Source: Alpinimonas psychrophila
GTDB lineage: Bacteria > Actinomycetota > Actinomycetes > Actinomycetales > Microbacteriaceae
NCBI RefSeq assembly: GCF_014137865.1
Contig: NZ_JACGWU010000003.1
Coordinates: 1 to 64,000, forward strand
Length of the DNA stretch: 64,000 bases
Direction of reading: 5' to 3'
The notes below the pieces were generated by a model that worked only from the letters and a program-made list of their open reading frames with translations, made no database searches and was not told the origin of the DNA. Positions 10,912 through 29,592 of this stretch are shown piece by piece (the first letter of the stretch is position 1; the number at the start of each line of letters is the position of its first letter). Both the position numbers and the translations under genes were made by a program.

Positions 10912-12549
10912 CTACGGGGCGAAGTGCTGCTCTGGCTCCACGTCGACAACGAGTACCAGCGGTTCTGTGCGGTCCGCGAGGTCGGCCACGGCGCTCGTGA
11001 GAACGTTTTCCAGGGTGCCGTAGTCACTGAGTCGTTGACTAGTGCAACCGAGACTCGCTGCCAAGGCGACGAAATCGATGGCGTCGAAGGCCGGCCACGC
11101 TGGGGGCGCGGAGCTCGCACGTTCGGCCAAGCGGTCCATGACGGCATAGCGTTCGTTGTTCAGGATCACGAACAGAGTGCCCACGTTGTAGTGGCCAGCG
11201 CTCCAGAGGCCTTGGATGTTGTAGAGCGCCGAACCATCTCCCAGCACTGCAACGACCGGGCGCTTCGGGTTTCCCATGCGCAAGCCGATTGCGGCCGGAA
11301 GCCCAAAGCCGAGGCCGCCCATTGCGGCACTCACGAAGCCCAGCGGCGAGCGTGCCGGCATGAGCTCATGCATGTCGGGGCGAGAGGAGGGGGTCTCCTC
11401 GACGACGATGGCATCGGCAGGCAACAGCGCCCCCAACAGTGCCATGACATGCGAAGCGCGGATGGGCTCGCTGGCCTTCGGGGGCGCAGGGGCCGCTCGG
11501 TGCGGCGGAATCACCGTGCGTGGGGACGGGACGAGGGCGACGAGATCCCGAAGGTCCGCAAGCGCCGGGGCAGGATCGGCAATGACCACGACAGAAGCGC
11601 GACTGCGGTGGGCCTCGTCGGTGTCTTCGGTAACGAGGAGAACCGTTGCGCCCTCGTCAAACATGGCGCCGGGTTCAAAGTTGTACTGACGAAAAACGGG
11701 AGCACCGACGGCCAAAATAACGTCGTACCCGACAAGCTGGCCACGAAGCGTTGACCGCGCTGCCGAGAGGAACCCCGCGAAAAGAGGATGATCCTGAGGG
11801 AAACCGGGGCGTGCGCCGAACGACTCCTGATAGACGGGGAGCTGAAGTTTCTCGGCAAGGGCAACGGCTGCCGTCCATCCGTCATCGGTGGCATTGCCGC
11901 TTCCAACCACCAGGACGGGGTTCGTGGCGGCATCGAGGTGTGTGGCGAGCTCGGTGAGAGCCGCGGGGGAGGCAAGACGGTCGGAATGAACGAGGTCGGG
12001 GGCCGCGAGAACGTGCGTGAGGTCGTAGGGCGCGAGCCAGTCATCCATGGGAACGATGACCACGGCCGGCCCGCGGTGGGTCGTGGCCTCGTGGAATGCT
12101 CGGGCAATGGCGGCAGGAACATCCTGGGCTGTTATGGGCTCATTGAACCAGACGGGGTAATCGCCCAGAAGGCCCCGAAGGCGACCCGCCAAAAAAGGTT
12201 GCGTGGCAAGGTGACGGCGATCCTGCTGGCCAACGATGATGACCAGTGGCGCCCTATTGACGCGTGCCGTGGCGATCGCGCCCACGGCGTTGCCGAGACC
12301 AGCGGTGGTGTGGACGACGACAAGGGCCGCATGATCGGTCGCCAAAGCGTGCCCGGTGGCCATTCCCACGACCGAGCCCTCATGCAGGGCAAGGATGAAT
12401 TCGAGGTCTTCGGGGAGGTCAGCGAGCAGCGTAATCTCGGTCGAGCCGGGGTTGGCAAACATGCGAGTCAACCCGTGAGTTCGGAGAATATCGAACGCGG
12501 CATCGCGAACGGTAGGCACAGGGACTGGCTGGATTTTGGGCTCTGACAT
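10912..12549 (-). CDS. mdlC: Benzoylformate decarboxylase-like ThDP enzyme
   Basis: 545-residue thiamine-diphosphate enzyme. Compared with Pseudomonas putida benzoylformate decarboxylase (from memory), it keeps the ThDP-activating Glu (ALHEG), the Ser of FANPGS (Ser26), the His of VVHTTAG (His70) and the GDGSALYNIQ...NN cofactor motif. The residue matching His281 is not His: GAPVFRQYNFEPG stands in place of GAPVFRYHQYDPG. Expected reaction is non-oxidative decarboxylation of an aryl 2-oxoacid to an aldehyde, but the substitution leaves the substrate open. It diverges from the aldehyde dehydrogenase at 12735, which would oxidise its product. Confidence 0.82.
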   Translation of the reverse strand: MSEPKIQPVPVPTVRDAAFDILRTHGLTRMFANPGSTEITLLADLPEDLEFILALHEGSVVGMATGHALATDHAALVVVHTTAGLGNAVGAIATARVNRAPLVIIVGQQDRRHLATQPFLAGRLRGLLGDYPVWFNEPITAQDVPAAIARAFHEATTHRGPAVVIVPMDDWLAPYDLTHVLAAPDLVHSDRLASPAALTELATHLDAATNPVLVVGSGNATDDGWTAAVALAEKLQLPVYQESFGARPGFPQDHPLFAGFLSAARSTLRGQLVGYDVILAVGAPVFRQYNFEPGAMFDEGATVLLVTEDTDEAHRSRASVVVIADPAPALADLRDLVALVPSPRTVIPPHRAAPAPPKASEPIRASHVMALLGALLPADAIVVEETPSSRPDMHELMPARSPLGFVSAAMGGLGFGLPAAIGLRMGNPKRPVVAVLGDGSALYNIQGLWSAGHYNVGTLFVILNNERYAVMDRLAERASSAPPAWPAFDAIDFVALAASLGCTSQRLSDYGTLENVLTSAVADLADRTEPLVLVVDVEPEQHFAP

Positions 12550-12734
12550 GGAGGCGAGGCTACAGGGGCGGGCGGGATTAGGGAATAGCTCCTGCGAAGC
12601 TCAGCGCGCTCTGTGTACTCGCTGACAAAACCTTTGCACGCATGGACAAATGGAGGGGGTTCCCCCGGATTAGTGTCATGCTTGAACGACTGTGAATTTC
12701 GACGGCAGTGCCGCCACTCGTCTTAGGAGAAGTT

Positions 12735-14192
12735 ATGACCTTGCTCGACCCCGCTCTGTGGAATGACAAAATTTTTATCAACGGATGGGTTGCCGGCAAC
12801 GGTGGCACGCGTGACGTTGTTGCCCCAGCCACGGGCGAGAAGCTGGGATCGTTGGGTCTTGCGTCTGTCGAGGACGTTGCCGCTGCGGCAACCGCTGCAT
12901 CGGCCGCGCAGAAGCTCTGGGCTGCAAAGAAGCCTGAGGAGCGAGCAGCCGTCTTACGCAAGGCGGGCGACTTGTGGGAACTTCACGCTGCTGAAGTTCA
13001 GGAGTGGCTCGTCAAGGAGGCCGGTTCGATTCCCCCCAAAGCGGGGCTCGAAACCCATATCGCGGCAAACGAGTGCTTTGAGGCAGCAGGGCTTCCCTCG
13101 CACCCCATGGGAAATGTGCTTCCCTCGAACGAGGCCCGCTGGAGCATGTCGCGCAAGCGCCCGGTCGGTGTCGTCACGGTTATTGCCCCCTTCAACTTCC
13201 CGCTCATTCTCTCGATTCGTTCGGTTGCCCCGGCGATTGCGCTGGGTAACGCTGTCCTTTTGAAGCCAGATCCTCGTACCGCAGTAAGTGCCGGTGTCTC
13301 TCTGGTTCGTATCTTCCAAGAGGCGGGGTTGCCCGATGGCGTTCTGCAACTGGTCAACGGCGGCGTTGACGTTGGCGAAGCCGTTGTTTCAGCAGCCGAA
13401 GTCCGAGTTGTCTCATTCACGGGTTCGACCGCAGCCGGTCGCAAGGTTGGCGAATTGGGTGCCCGTCACCTGAAGCGCACCCACCTTGAGCTGGGGGGCA
13501 ACAACGCTCTGATTATTCTTCCGGGAGCGGACCTCGCCAAGGCGGCATCCGCCGGCGCATTTGGATCCTTTATGCACCAGGGCCAGATTTGCATGACCAC
13601 GGGGCGTCACATCGTGCACGAATCTTTGCATGATGAGTATGTGGCGCTGCTGTCTGAGAAGGCGTCGCACCTTCCCGTTGGTGACCCGTCCACGCAACAG
13701 GTTGCTTTGGGTCCCATCATTGACGCGAACCAGACGGCCCGCATTCAATCGATTGTGGACGCCACGGTCGCCGCGGGCGCAACCCTGTCAGCCGGGGGAA
13801 CCCACGAAGGCAACTTCTACAAGCCCACCGTCCTCACCGACGTCACTCCGACCATGAGTGCGTGGAAAGACGAGATCTTTGGCCCCGTCGCCCCCGTTAT
13901 GAAGTTTTCGACGATTGAAGAAGCTATCGCGTTGGCTTCCGACAGTGACTACGGACTCTCTCTCGGAATTCTCGGTGATGTTGGTGAGGCAATGAAGATT
14001 GCGGATGCCATCCCCAGCGGAATCATTCACATCAATGAGCAGACTGTTTCTGACGAGGCCAATGCGCCTTTCGGTGGCGTTGGCTCGTCGGGAACGGGTT
14101 CTCGCTTTGGCGGTGCCGAGGCGAACATTGAGGCCTTCACAGAGACGCAGTGGTTGACGCTTCGCCCGGACATCGCGTCGTACCCGTTCTAG
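12735..14192 (+). CDS. Benzaldehyde-type NAD(P)-dependent aldehyde dehydrogenase
   Basis: 485 residues, complete aldehyde dehydrogenase fold. It has the substrate/cofactor motif APFNFPLIL, the Glu in LELGGNNALI and the nucleophilic Cys in HQGQICMTTGRH, followed by EIFGPVAPV. The N-terminus LLDPALWNDKIFINGW resembles benzaldehyde/vanillin-type dehydrogenases. The start ATG is chosen because AGGAGA lies 7 bases upstream; an upstream in-frame codon at 12708 has no such site. It diverges from the benzoylformate-decarboxylase-like gene and probably converts the aldehyde it makes to the aromatic acid. Confidence 0.85.
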   Translation: MTLLDPALWNDKIFINGWVAGNGGTRDVVAPATGEKLGSLGLASVEDVAAAATAASAAQKLWAAKKPEERAAVLRKAGDLWELHAAEVQEWLVKEAGSIPPKAGLETHIAANECFEAAGLPSHPMGNVLPSNEARWSMSRKRPVGVVTVIAPFNFPLILSIRSVAPAIALGNAVLLKPDPRTAVSAGVSLVRIFQEAGLPDGVLQLVNGGVDVGEAVVSAAEVRVVSFTGSTAAGRKVGELGARHLKRTHLELGGNNALIILPGADLAKAASAGAFGSFMHQGQICMTTGRHIVHESLHDEYVALLSEKASHLPVGDPSTQQVALGPIIDANQTARIQSIVDATVAAGATLSAGGTHEGNFYKPTVLTDVTPTMSAWKDEIFGPVAPVMKFSTIEEAIALASDSDYGLSLGILGDVGEAMKIADAIPSGIIHINEQTVSDEANAPFGGVGSSGTGSRFGGAEANIEAFTETQWLTLRPDIASYPF

Positions 14193-14234
14193 ATCGATTC
14201 GTCTTCTGACGAATATCAGTGAGGTGGCACCACC

Positions 14235-15146
14235 ATGAAGATCGTTCTCATTGGCGGAGCCGGCGGTATCGGTTCATCCGTTGCTTTCAACCTGCTGCGC
14301 ACGCAGACACCGTACGACATCGTCGTCGTCGATAACCGCGACAACATGATCACGTCGCACGTAATGGACCTCCAAGATGCGCTCTCCCTCGGAGGCGCGC
14401 GGTCCATTCGCGGCGGCACGGCATCCGATGCCCTGGATGCTGACATTGTGGTGGTCAGTGCTGCTGTCCCCTTGCGGCTGAACACCTCTCGGGACGTTTT
14501 TCTGCACGACAACGCGAGCCTCCTCGCCGGCATCGTCGACCCGCTCGTTGCCAGCGGGTGGAGTGGGGTTTTCATTCTGATGACGAATCCCGTCGACCCG
14601 CTGCTCACCTGGCTCTCGCGTCGCACCGGTTGGTCTCGCAATCATTTGCTCGGGTACACCCTCAACGACACGCAGCGATTCCGAACGGGCATTGCAGTGG
14701 CTCTGGGCATCGCGCCCCAAACGGTGACCGGGGTCGTCGTTGGCGAGCACGGAGCAGGGCAAGTCCCGGTCTGGAGCAGCGTGCGCGTGAATGGCAAGCC
14801 TGTCACGCTCACATCCGCCCAGCGTGACATCGTGCTCGACTACATCGACAACTGGTACATCAGGCACGTGGCGTTGGATTCCGCGCGCACCTCCACGTGG
14901 AGCTCGGGTCTAGGCGGTGCCCTCATGGTGGAGGCCGTCGTGCATGGAACCGAGGACCCGTTCCCGGCCTCCGTGATTCTCGAGGGCTCCTACGGCGTGA
15001 TGGGGATCAGCTCATCAACCCCGTGCATTCTGGGGCCGACCGGGCTCGTTCGGGTACTCGAGGAGCCTCTGGAGTCGGAAGAGCTCGCGAAGTTTGCGGG
15101 GGTTGCCCGCAAGATTGGCGAGCTCGCCGACTCCATCACCGTCTAG
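14235..15146 (+). CDS. LDH/MDH-family NAD-dependent 2-hydroxyacid dehydrogenase
   Basis: 303 residues with the Rossmann motif IGGAGGIGSS, the catalytic-loop Arg (TSRDVF), the TNPVDPL motif, the D-x-x-R pair (NDTQRFR) and the catalytic His in GEHGAG. The position that separates lactate (Gln102) from malate (Arg102) enzymes aligns to Leu in AAVPLRLNTSR, suggesting a larger or hydrophobic substrate. A 7-bp stem (14197-14203/14208-14214) precedes it. The ribosome site GAGGTGG is followed by its complement CCACC next to the ATG. Given its place after the decarboxylase and aldehyde dehydrogenase, it may oxidise a mandelate- or aryllactate-like acid; this is inference. Confidence 0.78.
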   Translation: MKIVLIGGAGGIGSSVAFNLLRTQTPYDIVVVDNRDNMITSHVMDLQDALSLGGARSIRGGTASDALDADIVVVSAAVPLRLNTSRDVFLHDNASLLAGIVDPLVASGWSGVFILMTNPVDPLLTWLSRRTGWSRNHLLGYTLNDTQRFRTGIAVALGIAPQTVTGVVVGEHGAGQVPVWSSVRVNGKPVTLTSAQRDIVLDYIDNWYIRHVALDSARTSTWSSGLGGALMVEAVVHGTEDPFPASVILEGSYGVMGISSSTPCILGPTGLVRVLEEPLESEELAKFAGVARKIGELADSITV

Positions 15147-15246
15147 CCGGCGAGCCCACGAGCCCACGAGCCCATGTTTCGCGCCGGGGCCTCTCGGAGT
15201 CCCTCGCGGATGCCTTGAGATTTGGTCTCTCGAGTAACAATTTCAT

Positions 15247-15303
15247 CGAGACCTCACGAAATCCGACCTCGCGATGCGGTGGCCCGGATTTCGTGGGATC
15301 TCG
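15247..15303. repeat. Long inverted repeat between convergent genes
   Basis: Arms 15247-15265 and 15285-15303 are complementary over 17 of 19 positions (core CACGAAATCCG / CGGATTTCGTG is perfect) around a 19-base loop. A further partial copy, CCCGGATTTCGCGG, follows at 15324-15337. The element lies in the 233-bp gap between the convergent dehydrogenase and hpaD genes. It could work as a bidirectional terminator or be a dispersed repeat; there is no T-run directly after either arm. Confidence 0.7.
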
Positions 15304-15379
15304 GCGTCAGATCTCCGAATTAACCCGGATTTCGCGGTGTTTCGCCAGGTCTCGCGGCAGAGGCCGGATTGTGTGGCGC

Positions 15380-16453
15380 CTAGAGCTGGTGACCTAGCTT
15401 GAAGCCGTGCTCCTTGTCGTCCTTGCGCGTGTAGGAGAATCCATCCGCACCGATGGTCTGGGCGAGCTCGCTGGGATCAGCGCGCTCGATGACCGGCTGA
15501 GGGTTGCCTTCCAGATCGAGCACGAGGGATGCCTCCGTGTACCAGCTGGGGACCACGGCGTTGCCCCACCAGTCGCGACGCTGGTTGTCGTGGACATCCC
15601 ACGAAACGCGGGGGTTGTCGGGGTCGCCGGTGTAGTAATCCTGCGTGTAAATCTCGACGCGGTGGCCGTCGGGGTCCCGCAGATAGAGATAGAAGGCGTT
15701 CGAGACACCGTGACGACCGGGACCTCGTTCGATGTGATCCGACTTGCGCAGGGCGCCGAGCTTGTCGCAAATGGCGATGATGTTGTGCTTCTCGTGAGTC
15801 GAGAAAGCAACGTGGTGCATGCGGGGACCATCGCCTCCAGTCATCGCGGTGTCATGCACGGTGTCTTTGCGGCGAACCCACGCGGCGTAGACAACGCCAT
15901 CCGAGTCGCTGATGTCTTCGGTGACCTTGAAGCCGAGGTCTTCGACGTAGGCGACCGCGCGGGGAACATCCGGGGTGACCTGGTTGAAGTGATCCAGGCG
16001 CACGAGAGCACCGGGAGTCTGAAGGTCATAGGCCCACGCCAAGCGCTCGACGTGAGTTGTCTCGAAGAAGAACTCGTAGGGAAAGCCCAGAGGGTCTTCT
16101 ACGCGCAGGGAGTCGCCTATGCCCTTGACGAAACCCTCCTTGCGACGCTCAACCTTGCAGCCGAGCTCCTCGTAGTACTTCTGAGCGGCGTCCACGTCGG
16201 CGTTACTGCGCACTCGGAAGGAGAACGCGGCAACCGCGGCGATAGGGCCTTTGCGCAGAACGAGGTTGTGGTGAATGAACTCTTCGAACGAGCGCAGGTA
16301 GATGGCGTTTTCGTCCTCTTCGGTGACGACGAGACCGAGAATATCGACGTAAAACTCGCGGGATGCGGCGAGGTCGGTGACGACGATTTCCATGTAGGCG
16401 CACCGAAGGATGTCGGGTGCCGGCGCTGTGGGGGTGGGGATCGGGTTTGACAT
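15380..16453 (-). CDS. hpaD: 3,4-dihydroxyphenylacetate 2,3-dioxygenase (homoprotocatechuate extradiol dioxygenase)
   Basis: Type I extradiol dioxygenase that opens homoprotocatechuate to 5-carboxymethyl-2-hydroxymuconate semialdehyde. The 357 residues hold two vicinal-oxygen-chelate repeats. The metal ligands fall at exactly the numbers known for the Brevibacterium fuscum enzyme: His155 (LDHFN), His214 (MHHVAF) and Glu267 (RVEIYT). The second-sphere His200 (TVHDTAM) and Tyr257 (YLYLRD) are also present. It is the last gene of the minus-strand homoprotocatechuate operon, 33 bp after hpaE. Whether the metal is Fe or Mn cannot be told from sequence. GAGG stands just upstream of the ATG. Confidence 0.95.
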   Translation of the reverse strand: MSNPIPTPTAPAPDILRCAYMEIVVTDLAASREFYVDILGLVVTEEDENAIYLRSFEEFIHHNLVLRKGPIAAVAAFSFRVRSNADVDAAQKYYEELGCKVERRKEGFVKGIGDSLRVEDPLGFPYEFFFETTHVERLAWAYDLQTPGALVRLDHFNQVTPDVPRAVAYVEDLGFKVTEDISDSDGVVYAAWVRRKDTVHDTAMTGGDGPRMHHVAFSTHEKHNIIAICDKLGALRKSDHIERGPGRHGVSNAFYLYLRDPDGHRVEIYTQDYYTGDPDNPRVSWDVHDNQRRDWWGNAVVPSWYTEASLVLDLEGNPQPVIERADPSELAQTIGADGFSYTRKDDKEHGFKLGHQL

Positions 16454-16486
16454 GGCTCTCCTCCTTGGGAGTCAGTAGAAAAGGTG

Positions 16487-18040
16487 TTAGTGCTTGGCGG
16501 TGCTGCCGGTGCTGCCGGTGCTGCCGGCGCTGCTGGCGGAACCGTTGCCGACACCGAAGCGCGGGGAGTGAGATTCTTCCAGCGAGATCTGCACCGATTG
16601 TTGCGTTGTGTAGAAGTCAATCGAGCGGTAGCCGCCTTCACGCCCGAGGCCCGAGGCCTTGACGCCCCCAAACGGGGTGCGCAGGTCGCGCACGTTGTTG
16701 GAGTTCAGCCACACCATTCCTGACTCGATGGCATGTGCGAAGTTGTGCGCACGTTTGAGGTTCGACGTCCACACGTAGGCCGCGAGACCGTACTTGGTGT
16801 TGTTGGCGAGTTCGAGGGCTTCTTCATCGGTGTCAAACGGGGTGATGGCAACGACGGGACCGAAGATCTCTTCTTGGAAGATGCGTGCTTCGGGCTTGAC
16901 GTCGACAAACACGGTCGGGGCAATGAAGTTACCCGTCGGGAATCCTTCAGGGCGCCCACCACCAGCGAGGAGACGACCTTCTCCCTTGCCGATCTCGATA
17001 TAGCTCATCACCTTATCAAAGTGATTCGGGTGAACCAGGGCACTGATTTCGCTCGCGGCATCGGTGGGAAGCCCCACCACAATGTTGCGGGCGCGTGTCG
17101 CGTAGCGCTCAATGAAGTCGTCGTAGATCTCGCGCTGAACGAGCACACGGCTGCCGGCCGTGCAGCGCTCGCCGTTCAGGCTGAACGCGCCAAAGACGGT
17201 AGCGTCCAGCGCGGCCTCAAGGTCTGCATCGGCGAAGACCACAGCGGGAGACTTGCCGCCGAGCTCCAATGACAGACTCTTTAGGAGGGGAGCCGCGTTG
17301 GTCGAAAGCATGGCACCGGTAGAACTGTCACCAGTGAAGGAAATCAACGGAACGTCGGGGTGCTTGACGAGAGCGTCTCCGGCGATACCGCCGGGGCCGA
17401 GGATGAGGTTAAAGACCCCATCGGGCACACCAGCCTCACGAAAGATGTCCGGCCACAGAACGGCCGAGAGCGGCGTGTAGCTAGCGGGCTTCAGCACGAC
17501 CGTGTTACCGGTTGCCATTGCGGGCCCCAGTTTCCACGACTCCTGCATGAACGGCACATTCCACGGCGTGATGAGCCCAGCAACCCCAATGGGCTTGCGG
17601 TTCACGTAGTTCATCTGGCGACCAGGAACCTTGAAGGCGTTGTCCTGTTGGGCGACGATCAGGTCAGCGAAGAAGCGAAAGTTCTCGGCGGCGCGACGAG
17701 CCTGACCGAGCGCCTGAGTGATGGGCAAGCCGGAGTCGTAGGACTCGAGTTCTGCGAGCAACGCATCACGCGACTCCACGATGTCGGCGACATTATGAAG
17801 GATGCGCGAGCGCTCGCGGGGAAGCATCCGCGGCCACGGGCCCTCGTGAAAGGCACGCTTGGCTGCGGCAACGGCCAAGTTGACATCGGCTTCGCTCGCC
17901 GACGCAGCCGTGATGTAGGTCTCGTTTGAGACGGGCTCGAGCACGTCGAATGTGGCACCGTCAAGCGAGTCGACAAATTTGCCATCGATGAAGTGCTGAA
18001 GGTGGGCCGGAAGATTTTTGGGGATCGGTTGAATCGTCAT
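16487..18040 (-). CDS. hpaE: 5-carboxymethyl-2-hydroxymuconate semialdehyde dehydrogenase
   Basis: 517-residue aldehyde dehydrogenase acting on the HpaD ring-cleavage product. Motifs: TPWNVPFMQESWK, LELGGKSPAV, the catalytic Cys in GERCTAGSR, and EEIFGPVVAI. The start at 18040 (MTIQPIPKN) follows the DapA-like stop by two bases; an upstream in-frame codon would overlap that gene. The C-terminus ends in a short Gly-Ser-Thr repeat tail encoded by near-perfect 9-base repeats (about 16495-16550), which is unusual for this enzyme. Part of the hpaG/RraA-GntR-dapA-hpaE-hpaD operon. Confidence 0.92.
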   Translation of the reverse strand: MTIQPIPKNLPAHLQHFIDGKFVDSLDGATFDVLEPVSNETYITAASASEADVNLAVAAAKRAFHEGPWPRMLPRERSRILHNVADIVESRDALLAELESYDSGLPITQALGQARRAAENFRFFADLIVAQQDNAFKVPGRQMNYVNRKPIGVAGLITPWNVPFMQESWKLGPAMATGNTVVLKPASYTPLSAVLWPDIFREAGVPDGVFNLILGPGGIAGDALVKHPDVPLISFTGDSSTGAMLSTNAAPLLKSLSLELGGKSPAVVFADADLEAALDATVFGAFSLNGERCTAGSRVLVQREIYDDFIERYATRARNIVVGLPTDAASEISALVHPNHFDKVMSYIEIGKGEGRLLAGGGRPEGFPTGNFIAPTVFVDVKPEARIFQEEIFGPVVAITPFDTDEEALELANNTKYGLAAYVWTSNLKRAHNFAHAIESGMVWLNSNNVRDLRTPFGGVKASGLGREGGYRSIDFYTTQQSVQISLEESHSPRFGVGNGSASSAGSTGSTGSTAKH

Positions 18041-18042
18041 GG

Positions 18043-18990
18043 TTACTTTCTCCGCATGTCGAACTCGGGAAGGACAGGAGTGATCCACTTTTCGCCCTGG
18101 GCCAGAAGCTTTTCAATCTTCTCGATGCCGCCGGGAGTGGGAGTGATCAGTGGGGGGCGAACGAGGCCACTCTTCACCAGGCCCATGCGCTCGAGGACAT
18201 ACTTGCCGGGAGCTGGGTTGGTTTCAACGAACAGCAGGTCGACGAGGGGGTGAACGCCATAGTGAATCTCGCGGGCACGCTCGAAGTTACCTTCTTCGTA
18301 GGCCCAGAACATATCGGAGACGGCCTGGGGGGCAATGTTCGACAGTGCCGAGATGAAGCCGATGCCGCCCAAGGCGAGCAGGGGGAGGCACAAGAGTTCG
18401 ATGCCCGACCACATGAGAACGTTGCTGCCGCACAGGTGGAAGACTCTGGAGAAGTGCTCGAAGTCCTTGGTGGTCTCCTTGATGCCGACGATGTTATCGA
18501 AGTCACGGTACAAGCGCGCAAAAGTCTCGGGGTCGAGCTCCACGGCGGTGCGACTCGGAACGTTATATGCCACGAGGGGCATATCGGGAAACTCGCGCGC
18601 TACGGTCGCATACCATTGGTACAGGGCCTCCTGCGTGGGACGAGCGTAGTAGGGCGTGATGATGAGGGCAGCATCAACACCCATCTCTTGCGCGGCAGCC
18701 GTGACCTCGAGCGTCTCGTCAAGCTTGGCGGAACCCGTTCCGGGCATGAAGGGCACGCGATCGCCAATGGCATCGTTAACCGTCTTGATTGCCGCGATGC
18801 GTTCGGCCACGGTCTGCGAGCTGGGCTCACCGGTTGAACCGCCAAGCGAGATGCCGTTGGTGCCATTGGCGAGCTGCCAGTTGACGAGGTTCGCCAAGGA
18901 ATCATGGTCTACGGAACCGTCAGTGTTGAACGGGGTCATGAGCGGCGCGAGGGAGCCGCGCATCGAGCGGGGATCGCTTCTGAACTTCAT
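18043..18990 (-). CDS. DapA-family aldolase (likely homoprotocatechuate-pathway aldolase)
   Basis: 315-residue Schiff-base aldolase of the dihydrodipicolinate synthase/N-acetylneuraminate lyase family. The Schiff-base Lys is Lys171 (GIKETTKDF), the catalytic Tyr is Tyr142 (AYNVPSRT), and the GSTGE phosphate/carboxylate loop is at residues 51-55. Sitting between the GntR regulator and hpaE, it is more likely a catabolic aldolase than lysine biosynthesis: it could split 4-hydroxy-2-oxoheptane-1,7-dioate into pyruvate and succinic semialdehyde in place of HpaI. This role is inferred from context. Two bases separate its stop from hpaE. Confidence 0.85.
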   Translation of the reverse strand: MKFRSDPRSMRGSLAPLMTPFNTDGSVDHDSLANLVNWQLANGTNGISLGGSTGEPSSQTVAERIAAIKTVNDAIGDRVPFMPGTGSAKLDETLEVTAAAQEMGVDAALIITPYYARPTQEALYQWYATVAREFPDMPLVAYNVPSRTAVELDPETFARLYRDFDNIVGIKETTKDFEHFSRVFHLCGSNVLMWSGIELLCLPLLALGGIGFISALSNIAPQAVSDMFWAYEEGNFERAREIHYGVHPLVDLLFVETNPAPGKYVLERMGLVKSGLVRPPLITPTPGGIEKIEKLLAQGEKWITPVLPEFDMRRK

Positions 18991-19033
18991 TGTGAGGTGC
19001 CTTTCCAGTGTGGCGTGAGATGTCGGTCAGTCT

Positions 19034-19738
19034 TTAGGAAACGGAGGGATGTTCGGCGTGGCCGGGAGATTCGAGAAAGGCTCGGAGTGTGCTGAGGCGG
19101 TGCTCGCGCGCGGCCAGCTCGATGGTGAGCGCGTCGGCGCCACTCTCAATCAGGCTCAGCAAATCATCGTGCTCGCGCACCGAGTCCTGAGCGCGGCCCG
19201 GAATATAGGTGAACATGGATTCGCGAATTGTGGCCAGACGATTCCAGCCACGGTGCACGAGATCAAGAATGTGCAAATTCGAGCAGTGCTCGAAAATCAC
19301 CGAGTGGAAGTCGTGGTTCAGTGCCGTAAACTGTTTGGCGTCAAACGCCGTGAGGACCTCACGCATCTCGGCATTGATGGCGCGAGCGGAGGCGATATCA
19401 CTGGCCTCCAAAAAGGGTGCCGCCATGGCTGTGGCCATGCCCTCGACAAGGCTGAGCGTCTCCATGGTGTACCGATATTCACGGGCATCGGTGGCAACGA
19501 CCTGCGCGCCAACGTTCTGCGTAAACGTGACGAGTCCCTCGGCTTCGAGACGTCGGATGGCTTCGCGAACGGGCACCGCACTGATGTCGAGTTCGGCAGC
19601 GGTCTGGCCGAGAACGAGGCGGAATCCTGGTCCGAACGTACCGTTGGTGATGTTGTCCTTGATGTACACGTAGGCCCGCTCGGCCTTGCTGGGAACGAGA
19701 GTGTGGGTGACAGCAATCTCTTCCGTCAGGGACGTCAT
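19034..19738 (-). CDS. GntR-family regulator with FCD domain
   Basis: 234 residues. An N-terminal winged helix (KAERAYVYIKDNITNG, then the recognition region AELDISAVPVREAIRRLEAEG) is followed by an all-helical FCD effector domain containing NHDFHSVIFEHC and a late REH. The start ATG at 19738 overlaps the stop of the FAH-RraA gene (ATGA). It lies inside the homoprotocatechuate operon, so it probably represses that operon and is released by a pathway acid. A near-perfect 16-bp palindrome 32 bp before the FAH-RraA start is its likely target. Confidence 0.92.
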   Translation of the reverse strand: MTSLTEEIAVTHTLVPSKAERAYVYIKDNITNGTFGPGFRLVLGQTAAELDISAVPVREAIRRLEAEGLVTFTQNVGAQVVATDAREYRYTMETLSLVEGMATAMAAPFLEASDIASARAINAEMREVLTAFDAKQFTALNHDFHSVIFEHCSNLHILDLVHRGWNRLATIRESMFTYIPGRAQDSVREHDDLLSLIESGADALTIELAAREHRLSTLRAFLESPGHAEHPSVS

Positions 19739-21201
19739 GAGCGTGCCGCCAGCCAGACGACGAACTTCGCTTTCCATGAAGCGTTCATTGGGTACAGGCC
19801 GTCGACGCCTTCGCCGCCCGCTACCATCTCGGCGATATAGGTCTCTTCCTGTTCCTGCACAATTGAATCGGCTACAACTTCTTCGATCAGATACGGCGGG
19901 ATGACGAGCACGCCGTCGGCGTCGCCCACAATTACATCGCCGGGTTGAACCGCTGCGCCACCGCATCCGATAGTGAGATCGAAGTCCCACGGCACGTGGC
20001 GACGGCCCAAGACGGCCGGATGACCCCCCGCGTGATAGGTCGGAATATCGAGGGCTGAGACGGCAGCGAGGTCGCGAACCCCACCATCGGTGACAATTCC
20101 GGCGGCTCCTTTGATCTGGGCGCGAAGCGCCAGAATGTCGCCCACGGTGCCGGTACCTCTTTCGCCGCGTGCTTCCATGACGAGAACGTCATCGGGGCCG
20201 AGAGCATCGAAGGCACGCTTCTGGGCATTGTATCCGCCACCGAATTTCTCAAAGAGGTCTTCGCGATGTGGGATGTAGCGCAGGGTTCGGGCCAGGCCAA
20301 CCAGGCGAGTCTCGGGCCGGGTCGATTTCAGGCCGTCGATGCTCACATTGTTGAATCCGCGCTTGCGCAGTTGCGAGCTCAGCGTTGCGGTTCCGACGGA
20401 GTTGATGCGGGCCTTGAGCTCGGGGGTCAAGGTGCTAGCTACCGGAGTGATTCCGGCGGCTTCGGCAGAGCCCCAGGCCTCGGCCCGCTGGAGGTCGTCG
20501 ACCTTGGGGCCGGGGCTATAAGCGGGCAGGGGCGCGGTGCCCTCGATGATGGGGGTAACGAGGCGCCCCGTAGTCGGGCTTCCGGATGCCGTGGGCGCGT
20601 CCACCTCCACCTCGACGGTGTCGCCGGGAACGACCACGGAAGAGCCCGCAGGGGTTCCGGTCAAGATCACGTCGCCCACCTCCAGAGTCATGAGTTGCGA
20701 CAAGTCGGAGACGAGCACACTAAAAGGAAAAGCGAGGTCTGTGGTGGTGTCGTCTTGCACGAGTTCACCATTGACCCAGGTGCGCACGCGCAGGGCTGTG
20801 GGATCAATCTGGCGGGCGTCGATGACAGACGGACCCATGGGCGTGAAACCGTCACCCCCCTTGGAGCGCAGGTTTGACCCCTTGTCGGCGTAGCGCAGGT
20901 CGTAGACACCAAAGTCGTTCGCAGCGGTAATGCCGGAGACGGCAGCCCACCCGTCCTCGGGGGTGACGCGGCGAACTTCGGTACCGATGATGAGTGCAAT
21001 CTCGCCTTCGAAGGCCAGAAGCTCGGTTCCCGCGGGACGCTCGAGTACTTTCCCGGTCGAGGACAACGATGTCGAAGGCTTAACAAAATAGGAAGGGTGC
21101 GCGGGAATGCGACCGCGTTGGGCAATGCGTGAGGGGTAATTCAAGTGCAGGGCAATGATCTTGCCGGGCGTGAATTCGTTGTTCAAGGGAACAACAGTCA
21201 T
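19735..21201 (-). CDS. Fusion: FAH-family decarboxylase/isomerase (HpaG-like) + RraA-like aldolase domain
   Basis: 488 residues joining two enzymes. Residues about 1-255 are a fumarylacetoacetate-hydrolase fold (metal-binding ExE in LLAFEGEIALIIG, then GDGFTPMGPSVI and VILTGTPAGS), as in HpaG, which decarboxylates and isomerises the ring-opened acid. Residues about 265-488 are an RraA/HMG-aldolase-like domain (IVTDGGVRDLAAV, holding the Arg-Asp pair of class II 4-hydroxy-4-methyl-2-oxoglutarate aldolases, then GHPAVLG and VGDADGVLVIP). E. coli HpaG has two FAH repeats instead. The start at 21201 has GGAGAG upstream. First gene behind the palindromic operator. Confidence 0.88.
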   Translation of the reverse strand: MTVVPLNNEFTPGKIIALHLNYPSRIAQRGRIPAHPSYFVKPSTSLSSTGKVLERPAGTELLAFEGEIALIIGTEVRRVTPEDGWAAVSGITAANDFGVYDLRYADKGSNLRSKGGDGFTPMGPSVIDARQIDPTALRVRTWVNGELVQDDTTTDLAFPFSVLVSDLSQLMTLEVGDVILTGTPAGSSVVVPGDTVEVEVDAPTASGSPTTGRLVTPIIEGTAPLPAYSPGPKVDDLQRAEAWGSAEAAGITPVASTLTPELKARINSVGTATLSSQLRKRGFNNVSIDGLKSTRPETRLVGLARTLRYIPHREDLFEKFGGGYNAQKRAFDALGPDDVLVMEARGERGTGTVGDILALRAQIKGAAGIVTDGGVRDLAAVSALDIPTYHAGGHPAVLGRRHVPWDFDLTIGCGGAAVQPGDVIVGDADGVLVIPPYLIEEVVADSIVQEQEETYIAEMVAGGEGVDGLYPMNASWKAKFVVWLAARS

Positions 21202-21232
21202 GGTCTCTCCGCTTCCTCGCGAGTGGTATTTG

Positions 21233-21248
21233 AAATCATATACGATTT
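21233..21248. promoter_or_regulatory. Likely GntR/FCD operator of the homoprotocatechuate operon
   Basis: AAATCATATACGATTT is a 16-bp palindrome with one mismatched pair (AAATC-R-TATA-Y-GATTT), 32 bp upstream of the FAH-RraA start. The central TATA with flanking AT/GAT arms fits sites of FCD-type GntR regulators, and a GntR gene lies in the same operon. A related sequence is at 36853-36868. Confidence 0.62.
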
Positions 21249-21292
21249 GGGGCAACCGTCAACCCCTCCCGTACGCAGCGCAGATTGCGGGG

Positions 21293-22639
21293 TTAGTGCC
21301 CCGCCAAAATTGCTTCCAACGTGACCGCGACGGCCAACACATGACGGTCCGCCCCGATGGCGCCTTCAATCCCCAAGCCAATGGGGAGCTGCCCGGCGGC
21401 TCGCGGCAGCGGGATGCTGAGCGCAGGCTGACCCGTCAGGCTTCCGGGATCAGTGTTGCGAATTGTGGTGGCGAAGTGCGGCAGAGCGATGCCGTCAATA
21501 TCCACCGTCGACTCCCCAATGACGGGCGCGGTCACGGGAACGGTGGGGTAGATCAGGGCGTCGAGACTATCTTTCGCAAACGCATTCGCGTAGGCCAACG
21601 CGAGAACCTCTTTGGCATCGAGCGCGCTCTCGTAGGCCTCGAACGATACGGGGGCCGCCAGGAGGTTTTCCATGATGGCGCGAACATCGGGAGAGGCAAC
21701 CTGGGCGGCAACATCCTGAATCGTCAACGAACCGAACGGTTCGGGAAGACTCTGCAGGTACGTGTCGAAGCCGTTCAGGGTTTCGTAGGCAACGACGGGC
21801 ATGGCAGCGGCCTCGGCAATCGCCTGCGCATCGACAACCTCGGTTTCTATGATCACGACCCCCGCACGTCGAAAAGCCTCAATCGCCTCCTCGGTGGCCA
21901 CGCGCACCTCCGCGCTCAGCAGGTCGAAGAAGCCGGGCCGAGGGACCCCTAAGCGAATCTGGTCGGCGGTGATGGGGAGCAGCGGAGCATCACCCGTGAT
22001 GATCGCATCGACCTCGGCCACATCTGCGACCGTGTGGGCGAAGATTCCTGCGGTGTCGCGCGTGGGAGAGAGGGCGATCATGCCCGCTCCGGGATATCTT
22101 CCTGTCGTCGGACGCATGCCAACGACGCCGCAGAACGCAGCGGGAATGCGCATTGAGCCGCCCGTGTCATTCCCCACCGCGAAGGCGACGATGCCAGCGG
22201 CAACGGCCGCCGCGGATCCACCGCTGGAGCCCCCGGGCACTCGAGTTGGATCCACGGGGTTATGCACGGCCCCAAAAGTCGCGTTGTTGCTGGTGGTCCC
22301 GAAGCCCAGTTCGTGCATGCCGACCTTGCCCACCATGTCGGCGCCCGCCTTCCGGATACGGGCAACGACCTCGGCGTCTAACGCGGGAATGGAACCGAGG
22401 AGGGCTGGCGTGCCACTGGTGGCCGGGAGTCCGGCCGTCTCGACATTGTCCTTAACTGCGAAAGGGATGCCCGCCAATGGGCCATCGGAGGAACGTGCGA
22501 CAGCGTCGTCGGCCACCGCCCAAAAGATTCCCAGCGTCGGTTTCGTTTCCACGGCGAGGCGACGAGCTTCGAACGAAACGGCGCGCGCATCCGCCGCCAC
22601 ACGGGCGCGAAAATCAGCAATGGATCCTGACATAACCAT
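21293..22639 (-). CDS. Amidase-signature hydrolase (mandelamide-hydrolase-like)
   Basis: 448 residues of the amidase-signature family. The catalytic Lys is in PFAVKDNVET, the Ser-rich loop is GGSSGGSAAA, and the nucleophile Ser is in NDTGGSMRIPA, completing the Ser-cisSer-Lys triad. The start ATG at 22639 follows AGAGGAG by six bases. It probably hydrolyses an aryl or alkyl amide to the acid and ammonia. P. putida mandelate clusters carry an amidase of this family (MdlY), and this cluster has decarboxylase and benzaldehyde-dehydrogenase homologues, so an arylamide is a reasonable guess. It runs toward the FAH-RraA gene with the operator between. Confidence 0.82.
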   Translation of the reverse strand: MVMSGSIADFRARVAADARAVSFEARRLAVETKPTLGIFWAVADDAVARSSDGPLAGIPFAVKDNVETAGLPATSGTPALLGSIPALDAEVVARIRKAGADMVGKVGMHELGFGTTSNNATFGAVHNPVDPTRVPGGSSGGSAAAVAAGIVAFAVGNDTGGSMRIPAAFCGVVGMRPTTGRYPGAGMIALSPTRDTAGIFAHTVADVAEVDAIITGDAPLLPITADQIRLGVPRPGFFDLLSAEVRVATEEAIEAFRRAGVVIIETEVVDAQAIAEAAAMPVVAYETLNGFDTYLQSLPEPFGSLTIQDVAAQVASPDVRAIMENLLAAPVSFEAYESALDAKEVLALAYANAFAKDSLDALIYPTVPVTAPVIGESTVDIDGIALPHFATTIRNTDPGSLTGQPALSIPLPRAAGQLPIGLGIEGAIGADRHVLAVAVTLEAILAGH

Positions 22640-22836
22640 GGGATTCTCCTCTTTGAGATCAACAACTTCAGTTTCGACCATGGAGGGCGCGCTCAGCTTG
22701 CCGCAGGGAGAAAGCAGGTAGGCGCACCGCGAACTGTTCGCCCGTGGTCAATTCGGACTTCAGGTTCCGACAACCACACGGCCATACTCTGAGTGAAGAT
22801 AGTCGCAGGCACTCAACGAAGAGGAATCTGATCATC

Positions 22837-24375
22837 ATGACGACACAACCTGACGTAATCATTGTTGGCGGTGGCACCGCAGGGTCCATCATTGCTCGTC
22901 GCTTGGTCGACGCCGGCAAGAAGGTACGCCTGCTCGAAGCAGGACGCCCCGATGTGAACCCCGCCATTCATGACATCAGCCGCTTAGGCGAGTTGTGGCT
23001 CAGTCAAGACGATTGGGGCTACTTTACGACGCCGCAAAAAGACGCCTTTGGGCGAAAGTTGCATTGGCCTCGCGGCAAAGTTCTCGGCGGCTCCCATTCC
23101 CTCAACGCCTCGATCTATGTGCGCGGCAATCACGCAGACTTTGACGGCTGGGAAGCTTCGGGTAACCCGGGCTGGGGGTGGAAAGATGTTCTCCCCGTTT
23201 ACCAGAAGATCGAAAACTACATCGGTGAGGCATCCCCTCTGCGGAGTCCCGGTGGTCTCCTCGACGTGACGACCGACTACCCCAAGGCGCCCATTCAGGT
23301 CTCCGGTCTCGAGGCAGCCCAGCAGGCGGGTGTTCCCCTCAACCCCGACTACAACGGCGAAAGCCAAGAGGGCGTCAACTTCGAACAACTCAACATGCGA
23401 GGCGGTGAGCGCCTCAGCACCTACCGGGCCTACTTGCACCCCATTGTGGGCAACGCGAATCTCGAGATCACGACAGGCGCTTGGGTTCACCGCGTCATCA
23501 TCGAAGACGGTCGTGCTGTCGGTGTCGAATACGAGAAAGACGGAGAGGTGCACGCCCTTCTCATCAAGGCTGGTGGCGAAGTCGTTCTCTGCGGTGGCGC
23601 CCTCGACTCTCCTCGAGTGTTGCTGCAATCGGGAATTGGCCCCACGAAAGACCTCGAAGCTCTCGGCATTAATGTCGTCAAGGACCTTCCGGGGGTCGGC
23701 GAAAACTTGCACGATCACCTCCTTGTTCCCGTGATCTTTAAGACCACCAAGAAGGATGTCGGCCCGCCGCCCGCCAACGTCCCGATCACGCAGGTGCACT
23801 GGTTTACCACCAGCCGCCCCGGCCTGAGCGTGCCCGACACGCAGCCCATCATCTTTAGCGTGCCTATGACGAACGCCGACACCATGCCCGATGCTCCGGC
23901 AACGGGCTTCACCATCATGGGCGGTCTCGTTACCCCCAAGAGCCGTGGAACGTTCAAACTCTCTGCCAAGGACCCGCACGCGCCAACCTTGCAGGACCCC
24001 CATATTCTCGAGAATGATGATGACGTCACGAGTCTCGTGTTCTCGGTCAAGGAGGCTCGTCGCGTTGGTGCGCAGGCGGCGCTCGCCGATGAGTGGGGGG
24101 CAGTCGAGGTATACCCCGGCGCTGACGTCGTCACCGATGAGCAGATCGCGGACTACATTCGCCACAACGCCATCACCTACCACCACCAGGTGGGCACGAC
24201 GAAAATGGGGATTGATGAGCTTGCCGTCGTGACGCCCACGTTGCACGTTTACGGCATTGAAGGGCTGCGCGTGGCGGATGCCTCGGTCATGCCTTTTGTG
24301 TCGACTGGAAACACTAACGCCCCGTCAATGGTCATCGGTGAGAAAGCGGCCGAGTTCATCCTCGACGGAAAGTAA
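22837..24375 (+). CDS. GMC-family FAD-dependent oxidoreductase
   Basis: 512-residue glucose-methanol-choline oxidoreductase. FAD-binding VIIVGGGTAGSIIARRL is near the N-terminus, the GMC signature region WPRGKVLGGSHSLNASIYVRG follows, and the C-terminal catalytic His is in AITYHHQVGTTKMG. It would oxidise an alcohol to an aldehyde, possibly an aromatic or polyhydroxylated alcohol given the surrounding genes. The start at 22837 (MTTQPDVIIVG) places the FAD motif as usual and has AGAGGAA ten bases upstream. It diverges from the amidase across 197 bp, in which no clear operator was found. Confidence 0.9.
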   Translation: MTTQPDVIIVGGGTAGSIIARRLVDAGKKVRLLEAGRPDVNPAIHDISRLGELWLSQDDWGYFTTPQKDAFGRKLHWPRGKVLGGSHSLNASIYVRGNHADFDGWEASGNPGWGWKDVLPVYQKIENYIGEASPLRSPGGLLDVTTDYPKAPIQVSGLEAAQQAGVPLNPDYNGESQEGVNFEQLNMRGGERLSTYRAYLHPIVGNANLEITTGAWVHRVIIEDGRAVGVEYEKDGEVHALLIKAGGEVVLCGGALDSPRVLLQSGIGPTKDLEALGINVVKDLPGVGENLHDHLLVPVIFKTTKKDVGPPPANVPITQVHWFTTSRPGLSVPDTQPIIFSVPMTNADTMPDAPATGFTIMGGLVTPKSRGTFKLSAKDPHAPTLQDPHILENDDDVTSLVFSVKEARRVGAQAALADEWGAVEVYPGADVVTDEQIADYIRHNAITYHHQVGTTKMGIDELAVVTPTLHVYGIEGLRVADASVMPFVSTGNTNAPSMVIGEKAAEFILDGK

Positions 24376-24418
24376 GACCACTTTTTACGCTTTGCTCGAC
24401 TCGACGAAAGATTCCTTC

Positions 24419-24925
24419 ATGTCTTCTGCCCGTTCTGCTCGCGATGTTGTCACCGCTCACTACGCGAACTCCGCCGCAGGCGACATGGAGGCCGCTTTCG
24501 CCGATCTCTCGCCGAACATCGTATGGACCGAATCGGCGGGGAGCGCCTACGCCGGAACGTTTGTGGGGCTACCGGCTGTCTTTGAGAACGTGTTCGGCCG
24601 CATTGCCGCCGAGTGGGATGACTTCGGCGCAATCCCATCGTCGATCATCGCCGATGAAACGACCGGGACGGTAGCCGCCGTTGCAAAACGCCAGTATGAG
24701 CTAGCGTTCGTAGACCTTTTCGCCCGCGAACCACGTCTGAAGCACCACGGTGTCGGCGATGTCGGTCGCAGGAATCTCCCACGGATTGCGATCCAGCACG
24801 ATGAAATCCGCCGACTTTCCAGGCTCGAGACTGCCAGTGATGGCGTCCAGCCCCATGGCCTTCGACGCTGCTGTCGTGTAGACCGCGATGGCTTCATCGA
24901 CGGAAAGCGCCTGTTCCAGCCATAG
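24419..24925 (+). pseudogene. SnoaL/NTF2-like protein, apparently 3'-truncated
   Basis: The first ~85 residues look like a SnoaL-type NTF2 fold: VVTAHYANSAAGDMEAAFADLSPNIVW, then FVGLPAVFENVFGRIAAEWDDF. From about 24695 the frame runs antisense through the 3' end of the convergent amidohydrolase gene (225 bp overlap) and the protein becomes low-quality sequence rich in Arg and His. The usual second half of the NTF2 barrel is missing. The simplest reading is that a deletion or rearrangement joined a cut SnoaL gene to the amidohydrolase. The start ATG lies 44 bp after the GMC gene, so it probably belonged to that operon. Confidence 0.6.
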
Positions 24926-26359
24926 AGTTCCGGGAAACTCGCCGTTGGGATCCGCGCGCGTGATGAGGCCTTCGATTCCGAGCCAGGGGTTGGGGATTGG
25001 GACCACGGGCCAGTCGGAGCCCCCGATGACGACGGCCCCCTCATCTAGGAGCAACCGGTTGGGTTGCATGTGCGTGGCGCGCTCTTCGCCAATCACGAGT
25101 TTGATCGCCTCAAAGATCACGCCGGGAAACCACAGCGACGGCGAAATCTCGGCCGTCACGGCAAGGCGTGCCATCCGGGGGATGTCCGCAACCGAGACGA
25201 ATTGGCCGTGGGCGATATGAACGGCCGTTTTCGTGAGACCCTGGCCCCGCAGAATTTCTACGGAGTCCAGCACCTGGCGAACCGCCCCATCGCCGGTGCA
25301 GTGAATCTTGGCGGAGAGTCCCGCTTTCGCCGCGCGAATGAGCCAGTGTGTCAGTGTGTCGGGCGACATGGCAGTGTGTCCATGGTGGTTCGCGCCATGT
25401 TCGGCATCAGGCAGGTATGGCTCGAGAAAACAGGCCGTGCGGGTCGGCGGAATGCCGTCCAGAAAAATCTTGATGAAGTCGGGGAGGTGGTGCTCGGTTC
25501 GAAATGCTTCGCCACCCCAGACCAGTCCATCGCCCACGGGGTCGGCCCCGAAGATCATGTCGTTGGCCATCATGCACGAGACGGCCCACGCCTTAAGACG
25601 GCCTTCATCATCCATTTTCTTCATCGCGGTCATCAGTTCGAGGCACGCCCCGGCGTCCTGAAAAGCGGTCACGCCATAACGATGCAGAATCTGGATGCCC
25701 CGTTCGGAGGTATCTGCCCACTGCTCGATGCTGAGGCGGTTTGCTGCCGCCATGACTTTCTCAACCATGACGCCGGCCGTTTCGAGCAGCACGCCGGTGG
25801 GGTCGCCGGTGGGGGAGCGTTCGATGCGCCCCTCGGCGGGGTCTGGGGTTACGGCCGTAATGTCGGCGAGACTCAGCGCCGCACTATTGGCCCACTTGTT
25901 GTGGTGGCTGTCATCGACGAACAGTGCCGGATGGTTGCCCGTGGCCTCATCAAGGCGAGTCAGCGTTCCCGAAGCCGACAGCTCTTCGAGCAACGTGCTA
26001 CCCCACGAGCCGCCGACGATCCAGGAGCCGGGGGTGAGGTTTTCGGCATAGTCGCTGATGGTCTCAAGGATCGCATCGAGCGAAGCCGTCGGAAGAAAAT
26101 TGACCTCCATGAGGTCGGCCTTGCCGCCAATTTGGTGATGGTTGTGAGCGTCATGGAGTCCCGGCATGAGAAAAGCACCCTGCATGTCGTGCACGACAGA
26201 ATCAGGACCGTGATGAGCAGCGTGAATCTCTGCCACGGTTCCAACGGTGAGAACTCGACCATTCTTGATGGCCAAGGTATCGGCCCACGGGGCCCCGGGA
26301 TTCAGAGTCGCAATTCGGGCATTGCGAACGATGAGGTCAGCGGCCGTTTTCTTCGCCAT
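24701..26359 (-). CDS. Amidohydrolase (YtcJ/amidohydrolase_3-like)
   Basis: 552-residue metal-dependent hydrolase of the amidohydrolase superfamily. The metal-binding HxH lies in GLHDAHNHHQIGG after the typical LMPGL strand. Later motifs are KIHCTGDGAVRQVLD and GSDWPV near the C-terminus, the latter supplying the catalytic Asp. This subgroup (YtcJ-like) hydrolyses C-N bonds in poorly defined substrates, including amides and formamides. It follows the MoaF-like gene by nine bases, so the two form an operon. The 3' end overlaps the truncated SnoaL gene. Confidence 0.9.
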   Translation of the reverse strand: MAKKTAADLIVRNARIATLNPGAPWADTLAIKNGRVLTVGTVAEIHAAHHGPDSVVHDMQGAFLMPGLHDAHNHHQIGGKADLMEVNFLPTASLDAILETISDYAENLTPGSWIVGGSWGSTLLEELSASGTLTRLDEATGNHPALFVDDSHHNKWANSAALSLADITAVTPDPAEGRIERSPTGDPTGVLLETAGVMVEKVMAAANRLSIEQWADTSERGIQILHRYGVTAFQDAGACLELMTAMKKMDDEGRLKAWAVSCMMANDMIFGADPVGDGLVWGGEAFRTEHHLPDFIKIFLDGIPPTRTACFLEPYLPDAEHGANHHGHTAMSPDTLTHWLIRAAKAGLSAKIHCTGDGAVRQVLDSVEILRGQGLTKTAVHIAHGQFVSVADIPRMARLAVTAEISPSLWFPGVIFEAIKLVIGEERATHMQPNRLLLDEGAVVIGGSDWPVVPIPNPWLGIEGLITRADPNGEFPGTLWLEQALSVDEAIAVYTTAASKAMGLDAITGSLEPGKSADFIVLDRNPWEIPATDIADTVVLQTWFAGEKVYER

Positions 26360-26368
26360 GGTAAGAAT

Positions 26369-27070: not shown

Positions 27071-27258
27071 TGTCAGCCTTGTTTCTTAAATCGCCAAGTA
27101 TGTCTTCCCTCACAGTATGAACGATTCGAGGCCCGTGAGCCTTGCGCGTGCGTGCTAATGCCTTGCGATAGAGCGCAGTGGGGCACACGTTGCGGTCCGC
27201 GATAAACCGGCGTTAACGTTAGAGACGTCAAAGTTCGCTCGTTCGAGGAGAGTTAATC

Positions 27259-29590: not shown

Positions 29591-29592
29591 TT

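Follow-up and report, generated by a model that had tools for sequence, protein, structure and literature searches.

The question raised by this locus is which 2-hydroxyacid serves as substrate for a protein of the lactate/malate dehydrogenase (LDH/MDH) superfamily, whose gene lies beside those of a benzoylformate decarboxylase (BFD) homologue and an aldehyde dehydrogenase (ALDH) in Alpinimonas psychrophila. The gene (positions 14235 to 15146, + strand, ATG start, 303 amino acids) was studied within a DNA stretch of 64,000 nucleotides, designated 'the window'. Both Pfam domains of the superfamily were found in its product above their cut-offs: Ldh_1_N (PF00056, 72.8 bits for a cut-off of 27) and Ldh_1_C (PF02866, 62.3 bits for 22.6). 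These were the only two domains returned by a Pfam scan at E<=0.001, and the FMN_dh domain (PF01070) was not among them. The protein clearly belongs to the LDH/MDH superfamily, as the initial annotation had stated. All nine LDH/MDH models of NCBIfam that matched it scored below their cut-offs, the best being that of L-lactate dehydrogenase (TIGR01771, 173.6 of 303.55 bits); the malate dehydrogenase model PRK06223 gave 158.4 of 283 bits. On the combined basis of Pfam, NCBIfam, alignment to PDB sequences, clade and tree, and a predicted structure with its fold match, we propose an NAD-dependent dehydrogenase of (S)-mandelate type.

MDHs carry Arg at position 102 and canonical LDHs Gln, while the trichomonad LDHs have Leu there (excerpt of PMC4109310). 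In the window protein, the loop AAVPLRLNTSR aligns without gaps with AGAPQKPGESR of the Lactobacillus pentosus LDH (PDB entry 1ez4), and Leu80 (codon at 14472 to 14474, + strand) therefore falls on the Gln102 column, a position assigned by sequence alignment rather than by superposed coordinates. Two further LDH alignments gave the same register, and the clade alignment described below agrees. Neither the Gln102 of LDHs nor the Arg102 of MDHs is present, and the annotated Leu at the discriminating position was thus upheld. The catalytic residues are intact, again as annotated: Arg86, Asp145, Arg148 and His172, invariant in a six-row alignment that includes the window protein, correspond to Arg109, Asp168, Arg171 and His195 in the conventional LDH numbering. 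A second residue of the presumptive pocket, Trp222 (codon at 14898 to 14900, + strand), pairs with Thr246 of LDH when the protein is aligned to 1ez4, and was followed in the clade alignment; with a one-residue gap at its side and residues of low model confidence close by, this pairing is less sure than that of Leu80. An Asp at position 33 is the usual sign of NAD preference, and Asp33, which closes the second strand, suggests such a preference here.

An AlphaFold model computed from a five-row alignment (pLDDT 77.6, pTM 0.80; residues 173-177 and 209-219 below pLDDT 50) found its best fold match in the same L. pentosus LDH, 1ez4 (Z 28.6, rmsd 2.7, 299 aligned residues, 28% identity). The two proteins share the fold, the catalytic Arg, the Asp-Arg pair and the His. 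They differ in that the window protein has Leu for Gln102 and Trp on the Thr246 column, is one residue shorter, with LND where the LDH has LD just ahead of the substrate Arg, and remains below the curated LDH cut-off.

Several characterised members of the superfamily offer a comparison, as far as the excerpts of the two sources go. FrsC, with Ser102 and a five-residue loop insertion, makes L-phenyllactate and does not convert phenylglyoxylate; it shares with the window enzyme the superfamily and the proposed aromatic substrate, but belongs to the cytosolic-like MDH group and uses NADPH/NADH, whereas the window enzyme has Leu102 and no insertion (PMC9299796, in part). In the Trypanosoma cruzi AHADH, too, residue 102 is changed without loop insertion, and an aromatic substrate, p-hydroxyphenylpyruvate, is reported for it; it differs by its Ala102 and its place in the cytosolic-like MDH clade (same excerpt). 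The 2-hydroxyisocaproate dehydrogenases (HicDHs) have a longer loop and lack Gln102 (PMC9299796, in part); the window protein resembles them in having a residue other than Gln at 102, but its loop is of LDH length, without insertion relative to 1ez4. The trichomonad L-lactate dehydrogenases share Leu102 itself; they are lactate enzymes derived from MDHs (PMC4109310, in part) and lie outside the set of sequences used for our tree. The initial annotation had argued from Leu102 to a larger or aromatic substrate. The Leu is real, but the argument is weakened by the trichomonad LDHs, which carry the same residue, and by FrsC and AHADH, which carry Ser and Ala (excerpts of PMC4109310 and PMC9299796); as the sole argument for an aromatic substrate, Leu102 was rejected. 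We regard the protein as a candidate for a branch of new specificity within the superfamily, outside the LDH, MDH and HicDH families.

Relatives were then placed in a maximum-likelihood tree. The set contained 63 rows, reduced to 60 by the removal of three exact duplicates, and held no sequence labelled HicDH or trichomonad LDH. Twelve distinct proteins formed a separate group (support 100/99), and Leu was found at position 102 in 12/12 of them, against 0/48 of the other rows. Leu102 is therefore a feature of this clade, and chance or a sequencing error was ruled out as its source. Asp33 is likewise present in all 12. Six wider relatives (L004, L063-L066, L071) join the clade at 87/86, and a seventh look-alike, from Halorientalis, falls outside. 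Two of these rows, that of genome G240 (L004, end branch 3.13, joined at 82/72) and that of Halorientalis (3.0), have branches too long for good placement. Among the wider relatives, residue 102 is Ala, Gln, His, Glu or Arg. Trp222 is common to the 12 clade members and to 7/7 wider relatives examined, and is therefore not specific to the clade. In L063, L064, L065, L066 and L071, an ND motif precedes the substrate Arg and residue 102 is Ala, Gln or His; their sequences suggest that 2-hydroxyacid dehydrogenases of several specificities make up a broader group here.

A scan of 84,980 species genomes with the single protein yielded four relatives: one at 81% in a metagenome-assembled genome (MAG) of Microbacteriaceae, two at 70% and 68% in Aurantimicrobium MAGs, and one at 49% in Actinospica durhamensis. 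With a six-row profile, clear members of the Leu102 clade were found in 9/299 genomes of the family (at least 493 bits, the next value being 185). The same profile, run against 394 genomes of the class at E<=1e-50, recovered, in addition to the own genome, one further member in G854 (422 bits) and three at 205-209 bits; a profile search of 396 genomes of the phylum added, besides the own genome, five with weaker relatives at no more than 250 bits. A close plasmid-borne relative was also considered and rejected, all 109 matching plasmid records being below 60% identity.

The genes upstream give the first indication of a substrate. As the initial annotation had described, an ALDH gene (12708 to 14192, + strand; Pfam Aldedh) ends 42 bases before the LDH-like gene and diverges from that of the BFD homologue, a ThDP enzyme (10912 to 12549, - strand). 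Of 395 plasmid records, the one that matches the ALDH best (67.4% identity across the full query, on a Citricoccus plasmid) is annotated as benzaldehyde dehydrogenase, a name carried by 14 of the 25 matches listed (the best 25 of 395); the protein is under the NCBIfam cut-off in every one of the 25 families among the matches listed. Its real start may be an ATG near 12735. The BFD homologue scores 491.7 bits with the NCBIfam benzoylformate decarboxylase equivalog, for a cut-off of 493, and it is because of this shortfall of 1.3 bits that we call it a homologue. Among 50 PDB sequences matching it at E<=1e-30, 49 are named benzoylformate decarboxylase; many of these appear to be variants of a single protein. 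As a further reservation, the homologue reads FRQY where the BFD of G240 reads FRYH, at the site of a second catalytic His in the Pseudomonas putida BFD; the PDB entry 4k9q, named BFD, also has a Tyr there.

From these elements a pathway can be proposed. The LDH-like enzyme would oxidise (S)-mandelate or a mandelate hydroxylated on its ring; the arylglyoxylate so formed would be decarboxylated by the divergent BFD homologue to the aromatic aldehyde, and the upstream ALDH would then give a benzoate-type acid. The hydroxyacid itself could be supplied from an amide or a cyanohydrin by an amidase and by a nitrilase-family protein encoded elsewhere in the genome. Leu80 and Trp222 may hold the aromatic ring. 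We consider it moderately probable that the open reading frame encodes such a soluble NAD-dependent L-2-hydroxyacid dehydrogenase, acting on (S)-mandelate or its ring-hydroxylated forms; substrate and direction are predicted from the context, and the stereochemistry from the L-specific fold. The BFD, benzaldehyde dehydrogenase and amide hydrolase neighbours recall the mdl pathway of Pseudomonas. A mandelamide hydrolase and a benzaldehyde dehydrogenase of the P. putida mandelate pathway were reportedly described in 2003; an excerpt of PMC10155308 deals with that pathway.

On the other side of the gene, a second aromatic gene set begins. It comprises a 3,4-dihydroxyphenylacetate 2,3-dioxygenase (HpaD; 15380 to 16453, - strand; 426.4 bits, above the cut-off of 321.4) and an HpaE-like semialdehyde dehydrogenase (16487 to 18088, - strand; 617.1 bits, just under the HpaE cut-off of 638.35). 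These are followed by a DHDPS-family protein (18043 to 18990, - strand), an HpaI-like aldolase by context: its top NCBIfam score is with the HpaI-NOT-DapA model (341.5 bits, under the cut-off of 396.7), and the only cut-off that it passes among the matches listed is that of dapA (271.5 for 206.15). Pfam identifies next a GntR/FCD regulator (19034 to 19990, - strand), whose real start is probably further in, and an FAA hydrolase (FAH)/RraA fusion (19735 to 21255, - strand; PRK12764, 821.8 bits for a cut-off of 444), HpaG-like by context. Beyond these lie an amidase-signature hydrolase (21293 to 22681, - strand; Pfam Amidase), for which the PDB gave eight matches at E<=1e-40, all to general amidases and GatA, and a GMC-family flavin oxidoreductase (22744 to 24375, + strand). 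The PDB entries that match the latter best, a chloramphenicol-inactivating oxidoreductase and choline and alcohol oxidases, do not define its function.

This arrangement was compared with that of other genomes of the family. Beyond the window, eleven loci were available, corresponding to nine distinct ones (L033 equals L053, and L035 equals L054), some of them cut by contig ends; an additional locus, L061 of genome G458, encodes an ordinary LDH with Gln102 and was left outside this count. Near the LDH-like gene (at a distance of a few kb in the case of the amidase), relatives of the amidase and of the GMC oxidoreductase were each found in 8/9 distinct loci, as were Hpa-type (homoprotocatechuate-type) genes. 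BFD and ALDH form a divergent pair in 4/4 genomes examined (G440, G484, G407, G556), and in G484 and G407 some 11-12 kb separate the BFD gene from the LDH-like gene. These two genes lie on different contigs in G396, G440, G506, G556, G632 and G668, all of which are fragmented assemblies. In 6/9 loci a MoaF-type gene stands directly 3' of the LDH-like gene (MoaF domains were checked in one of the six). MoaF-type proteins also recur beside this gene or its neighbours at 26369-27070 of the window, at 7186-7980 of L034 and at 10939-11733 of L035.

The recurrence of Hpa-type genes, in the window and in eight of the nine loci, lends itself to another explanation: the enzyme could be an aryllactate dehydrogenase, turning phenyl-, 4-hydroxyphenyl- or 3,4-dihydroxyphenyllactate into the arylpyruvate, which after decarboxylation and oxidation would enter the adjacent HpaD pathway as arylacetate. 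This explanation is also in line with two aromatic members described for the superfamily, FrsC and the T. cruzi AHADH, which act on arylpyruvates (PMC9299796, in part). The accompanying enzymes point the other way, however. The ThDP enzyme matches BFDs, and no arylpyruvate decarboxylase occurs among its 50 PDB matches at E<=1e-30; the best annotated plasmid matches of the ALDH carry the name benzaldehyde dehydrogenase, and with two phenylacetaldehyde dehydrogenase models it scores only 271.6 of 800 and 259.8 of 850 bits, although it is under every cut-off among the matches listed.

Clusters from two distant actinobacteria outside the family argue in the same direction. In G854, an amidase gene, a nitrilase-family gene, a BFD homologue (58% identical to that of the window; 465.6 bits, under the cut-off), the LDH-like gene and an ALDH gene follow one another on one strand; the LDH-like protein is 56% identical to that of the window over 260 residues, and 53% in another alignment. 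In G240, 8.2 kb of one strand hold genes for a BFD (799.6 bits, above the cut-off of 493), an ALDH, an amidase, the LDH-like protein, a LysR regulator and a nitrilase-family (CN_hydrolase) protein. With the Nit6803 model, whose cut-off is 502.6 bits, the nitrilase-family proteins of G240 and G854 score only 233.2 and 219.1 bits. A homologue of the window HpaD was absent at E<=1e-12 from the 20 kb that were examined in either genome. Because the LDH-like protein of G240 is only 36% identical to that of the window (over 244 residues), has Glu102 and sits on a very long branch, its cluster may not be representative of the Leu102 clade. Taking both sides together, we hold the aryllactate explanation to be unlikely. 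The initial annotation had proposed a mandelate- or aryllactate-type enzyme; the sequence does not settle the choice, and it is the context in other genomes that favours the mandelate branch. What speaks for mandelate over aryllactate is the presence of the benzaldehyde-dehydrogenase-like ALDH, of the BFD homologue and of the nitrilase-family protein; ring-hydroxylated mandelates would fit both the mandelate-type and the homoprotocatechuate gene sets.

A further possibility is that the enzyme acts on some other 2-hydroxyacid, for example aliphatic or sugar-derived, and was recruited to aromatic clusters for a different step. This would be consistent with the variety of residues at 102 in the wider relatives (Ala, Gln, His, Glu or Arg) and with the surroundings of L073, where sugar-kinase-, aldolase- and Gfo/Idh-like open reading frames were recognised by eye. 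The Actinospica member of the Leu102 clade (in the stretch 9962-14278 of L036) has as neighbours a PRK07046-type transaminase (586.2 bits for a cut-off of 425) and a protein of MocR/aminotransferase type; neither the BFD query at E<=1e-50 nor the nitrilase query at E<=1e-20 found a match in this genome. One idea is that the two PLP enzymes of this locus transaminate an arylglyoxylate to an arylglycine.

Against recruitment for another substrate stands the association with BFD. A BFD query of the 299 family genomes matched 16 of them at E<=1e-90, namely all 9 that carry the LDH-like gene, G589, G677 (52% identity), and five genomes at 37-41%. If orthologues are defined at E<=1e-120, BFD is present in 9/9 carriers against 2/290 non-carriers (Fisher p 1e-15), and by genus in 3/3 against 1/82 (p 4e-5). 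The carriers represent three genera only, so that these counts are not independent and the p-values are a guide. The threshold was set after viewing the list, in the gap between 2e-127 and 2e-99 (best match per genome), which led to 11 genomes being counted; with the looser E<=1e-90, 7/290 non-carriers are positive. G589, a non-carrier with the BFD orthologue, is 77% complete and belongs to the same genus as four carriers. Among 11 genomes outside the family, Actinospica included, the query matched two at E<=1e-50, G240 and G854, in which BFD and LDH-like genes are tightly clustered (the G240 protein being a distant relative). We judge such a recruitment for another 2-hydroxyacid to be improbable.

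A nitrilase-family protein 60-63% identical to that of G240 occurs in 6/9 carriers, including the own genome (contig C9). No match at this level was found in the carriers G396, G506 and G407, two of which are less than 90% complete. A nitrilase query of 184 family genomes at E<=1e-90 gave six matches, 4 in carriers and 2 in non-carriers. The match in G556 (L097, contig C75) has one in-frame TAG, so that this gene is possibly disrupted or wrongly assembled. A route from cyanohydrin or amide to mandelate, arylglyoxylate, aldehyde and acid, with the LDH-like enzyme at the mandelate step, is the most economical explanation.

The own genome (97.5% complete) also contains one malate:quinone oxidoreductase, Mqo (752.4 bits), and, on contig C2, one strong FMN hydroxyacid dehydrogenase (PF01070) besides two weak partial PF01070 matches. 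The strong one scores best as a lactate dehydrogenase (297.8 of 376 bits, under the cut-offs). The oxidation of malate, and perhaps of lactate, need therefore not depend on the LDH-like enzyme. That this enzyme is simply the organism's own L-lactate or malate dehydrogenase, diverged, would agree with its being the only PF00056 protein found in the genome, with L-lactate dehydrogenases as its best fold and sequence matches and with the Leu102 of trichomonad LDHs (PMC4109310, in part), but is very unlikely in view of its scores with the LDH and MDH models (173.6 of 303.55 and 158.4 of 283 bits), of Mqo and the lactate-type FMN enzyme, and of its separate clade, found in 9/299 family genomes only. 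The FMN dehydrogenase, which adjoins an FAH-family-like open reading frame (recognised by eye), could in principle act on mandelate.

How would an NAD-dependent (S)-mandelate dehydrogenase of this type relate to the mandelate enzymes already described? The (S)-mandelate dehydrogenase of P. putida has a different fold from that of the LDH/MDH superfamily, and the NAD-dependent D-mandelate dehydrogenases belong to other enzyme families. An excerpt of a review on mandelic acid biosynthesis assigns (S)-mandelate to an FMN enzyme of P. putida and (R)-mandelate to one that depends on NADH (PMC12388565). The proposed reaction is thus that of the P. putida enzyme with another cofactor, while the nicotinamide cofactor and the phenylglyoxylate/mandelate pair are shared with the D-mandelate dehydrogenases, for instance that of Rhodotorula graminis, which differ in acting on (R)-mandelate (PMC12388565, in part). 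Among the matches listed in a search of open-access titles and abstract openings, none named a mandelate dehydrogenase of the LDH/MDH superfamily, which is no proof of novelty. The wider proposal, that the new clade is a dedicated NAD-dependent (S)-(hydroxy)mandelate dehydrogenase replacing the FMN enzyme in an actinobacterial nitrile/amide pathway, with electrons passed to NADH and not to the membrane, is in our view evenly balanced. If true, it would add a further change of substrate to a superfamily that serves as a model for how enzyme specificity evolves, obtained without loop insertion of the FrsC or HicDH type, and a substrate class with the 2-oxo group directly on the ring, which FrsC refuses (PMC9299796, in part). 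It would also offer chiral chemistry a soluble (S)-mandelate enzyme that works with NAD, and link Microbacteriaceae of the Aurantimicrobium kind to the breakdown of aromatic nitriles and amides.

Two other features of the window were observed. Tandem AraC-type open reading frames are found at 36909-37943 and 38031-38642; the second resembles residues 142-332 of the first (43% over 191 residues), the N-terminal part being absent from the frame as listed. The stretch 28703-36007 has a G+C content of 0.516, compared to 0.61 before it (10912-28359), and to 0.57 then 0.607 after it. It encodes an intradiol dioxygenase, an iron-alcohol-dehydrogenase-type protein, an HpaB-like hydroxylase and a large MalT/LuxR-like regulator (the names hydroxyquinol dioxygenase and maleylacetate reductase, and the regulator type, were given by eye), and was possibly acquired.
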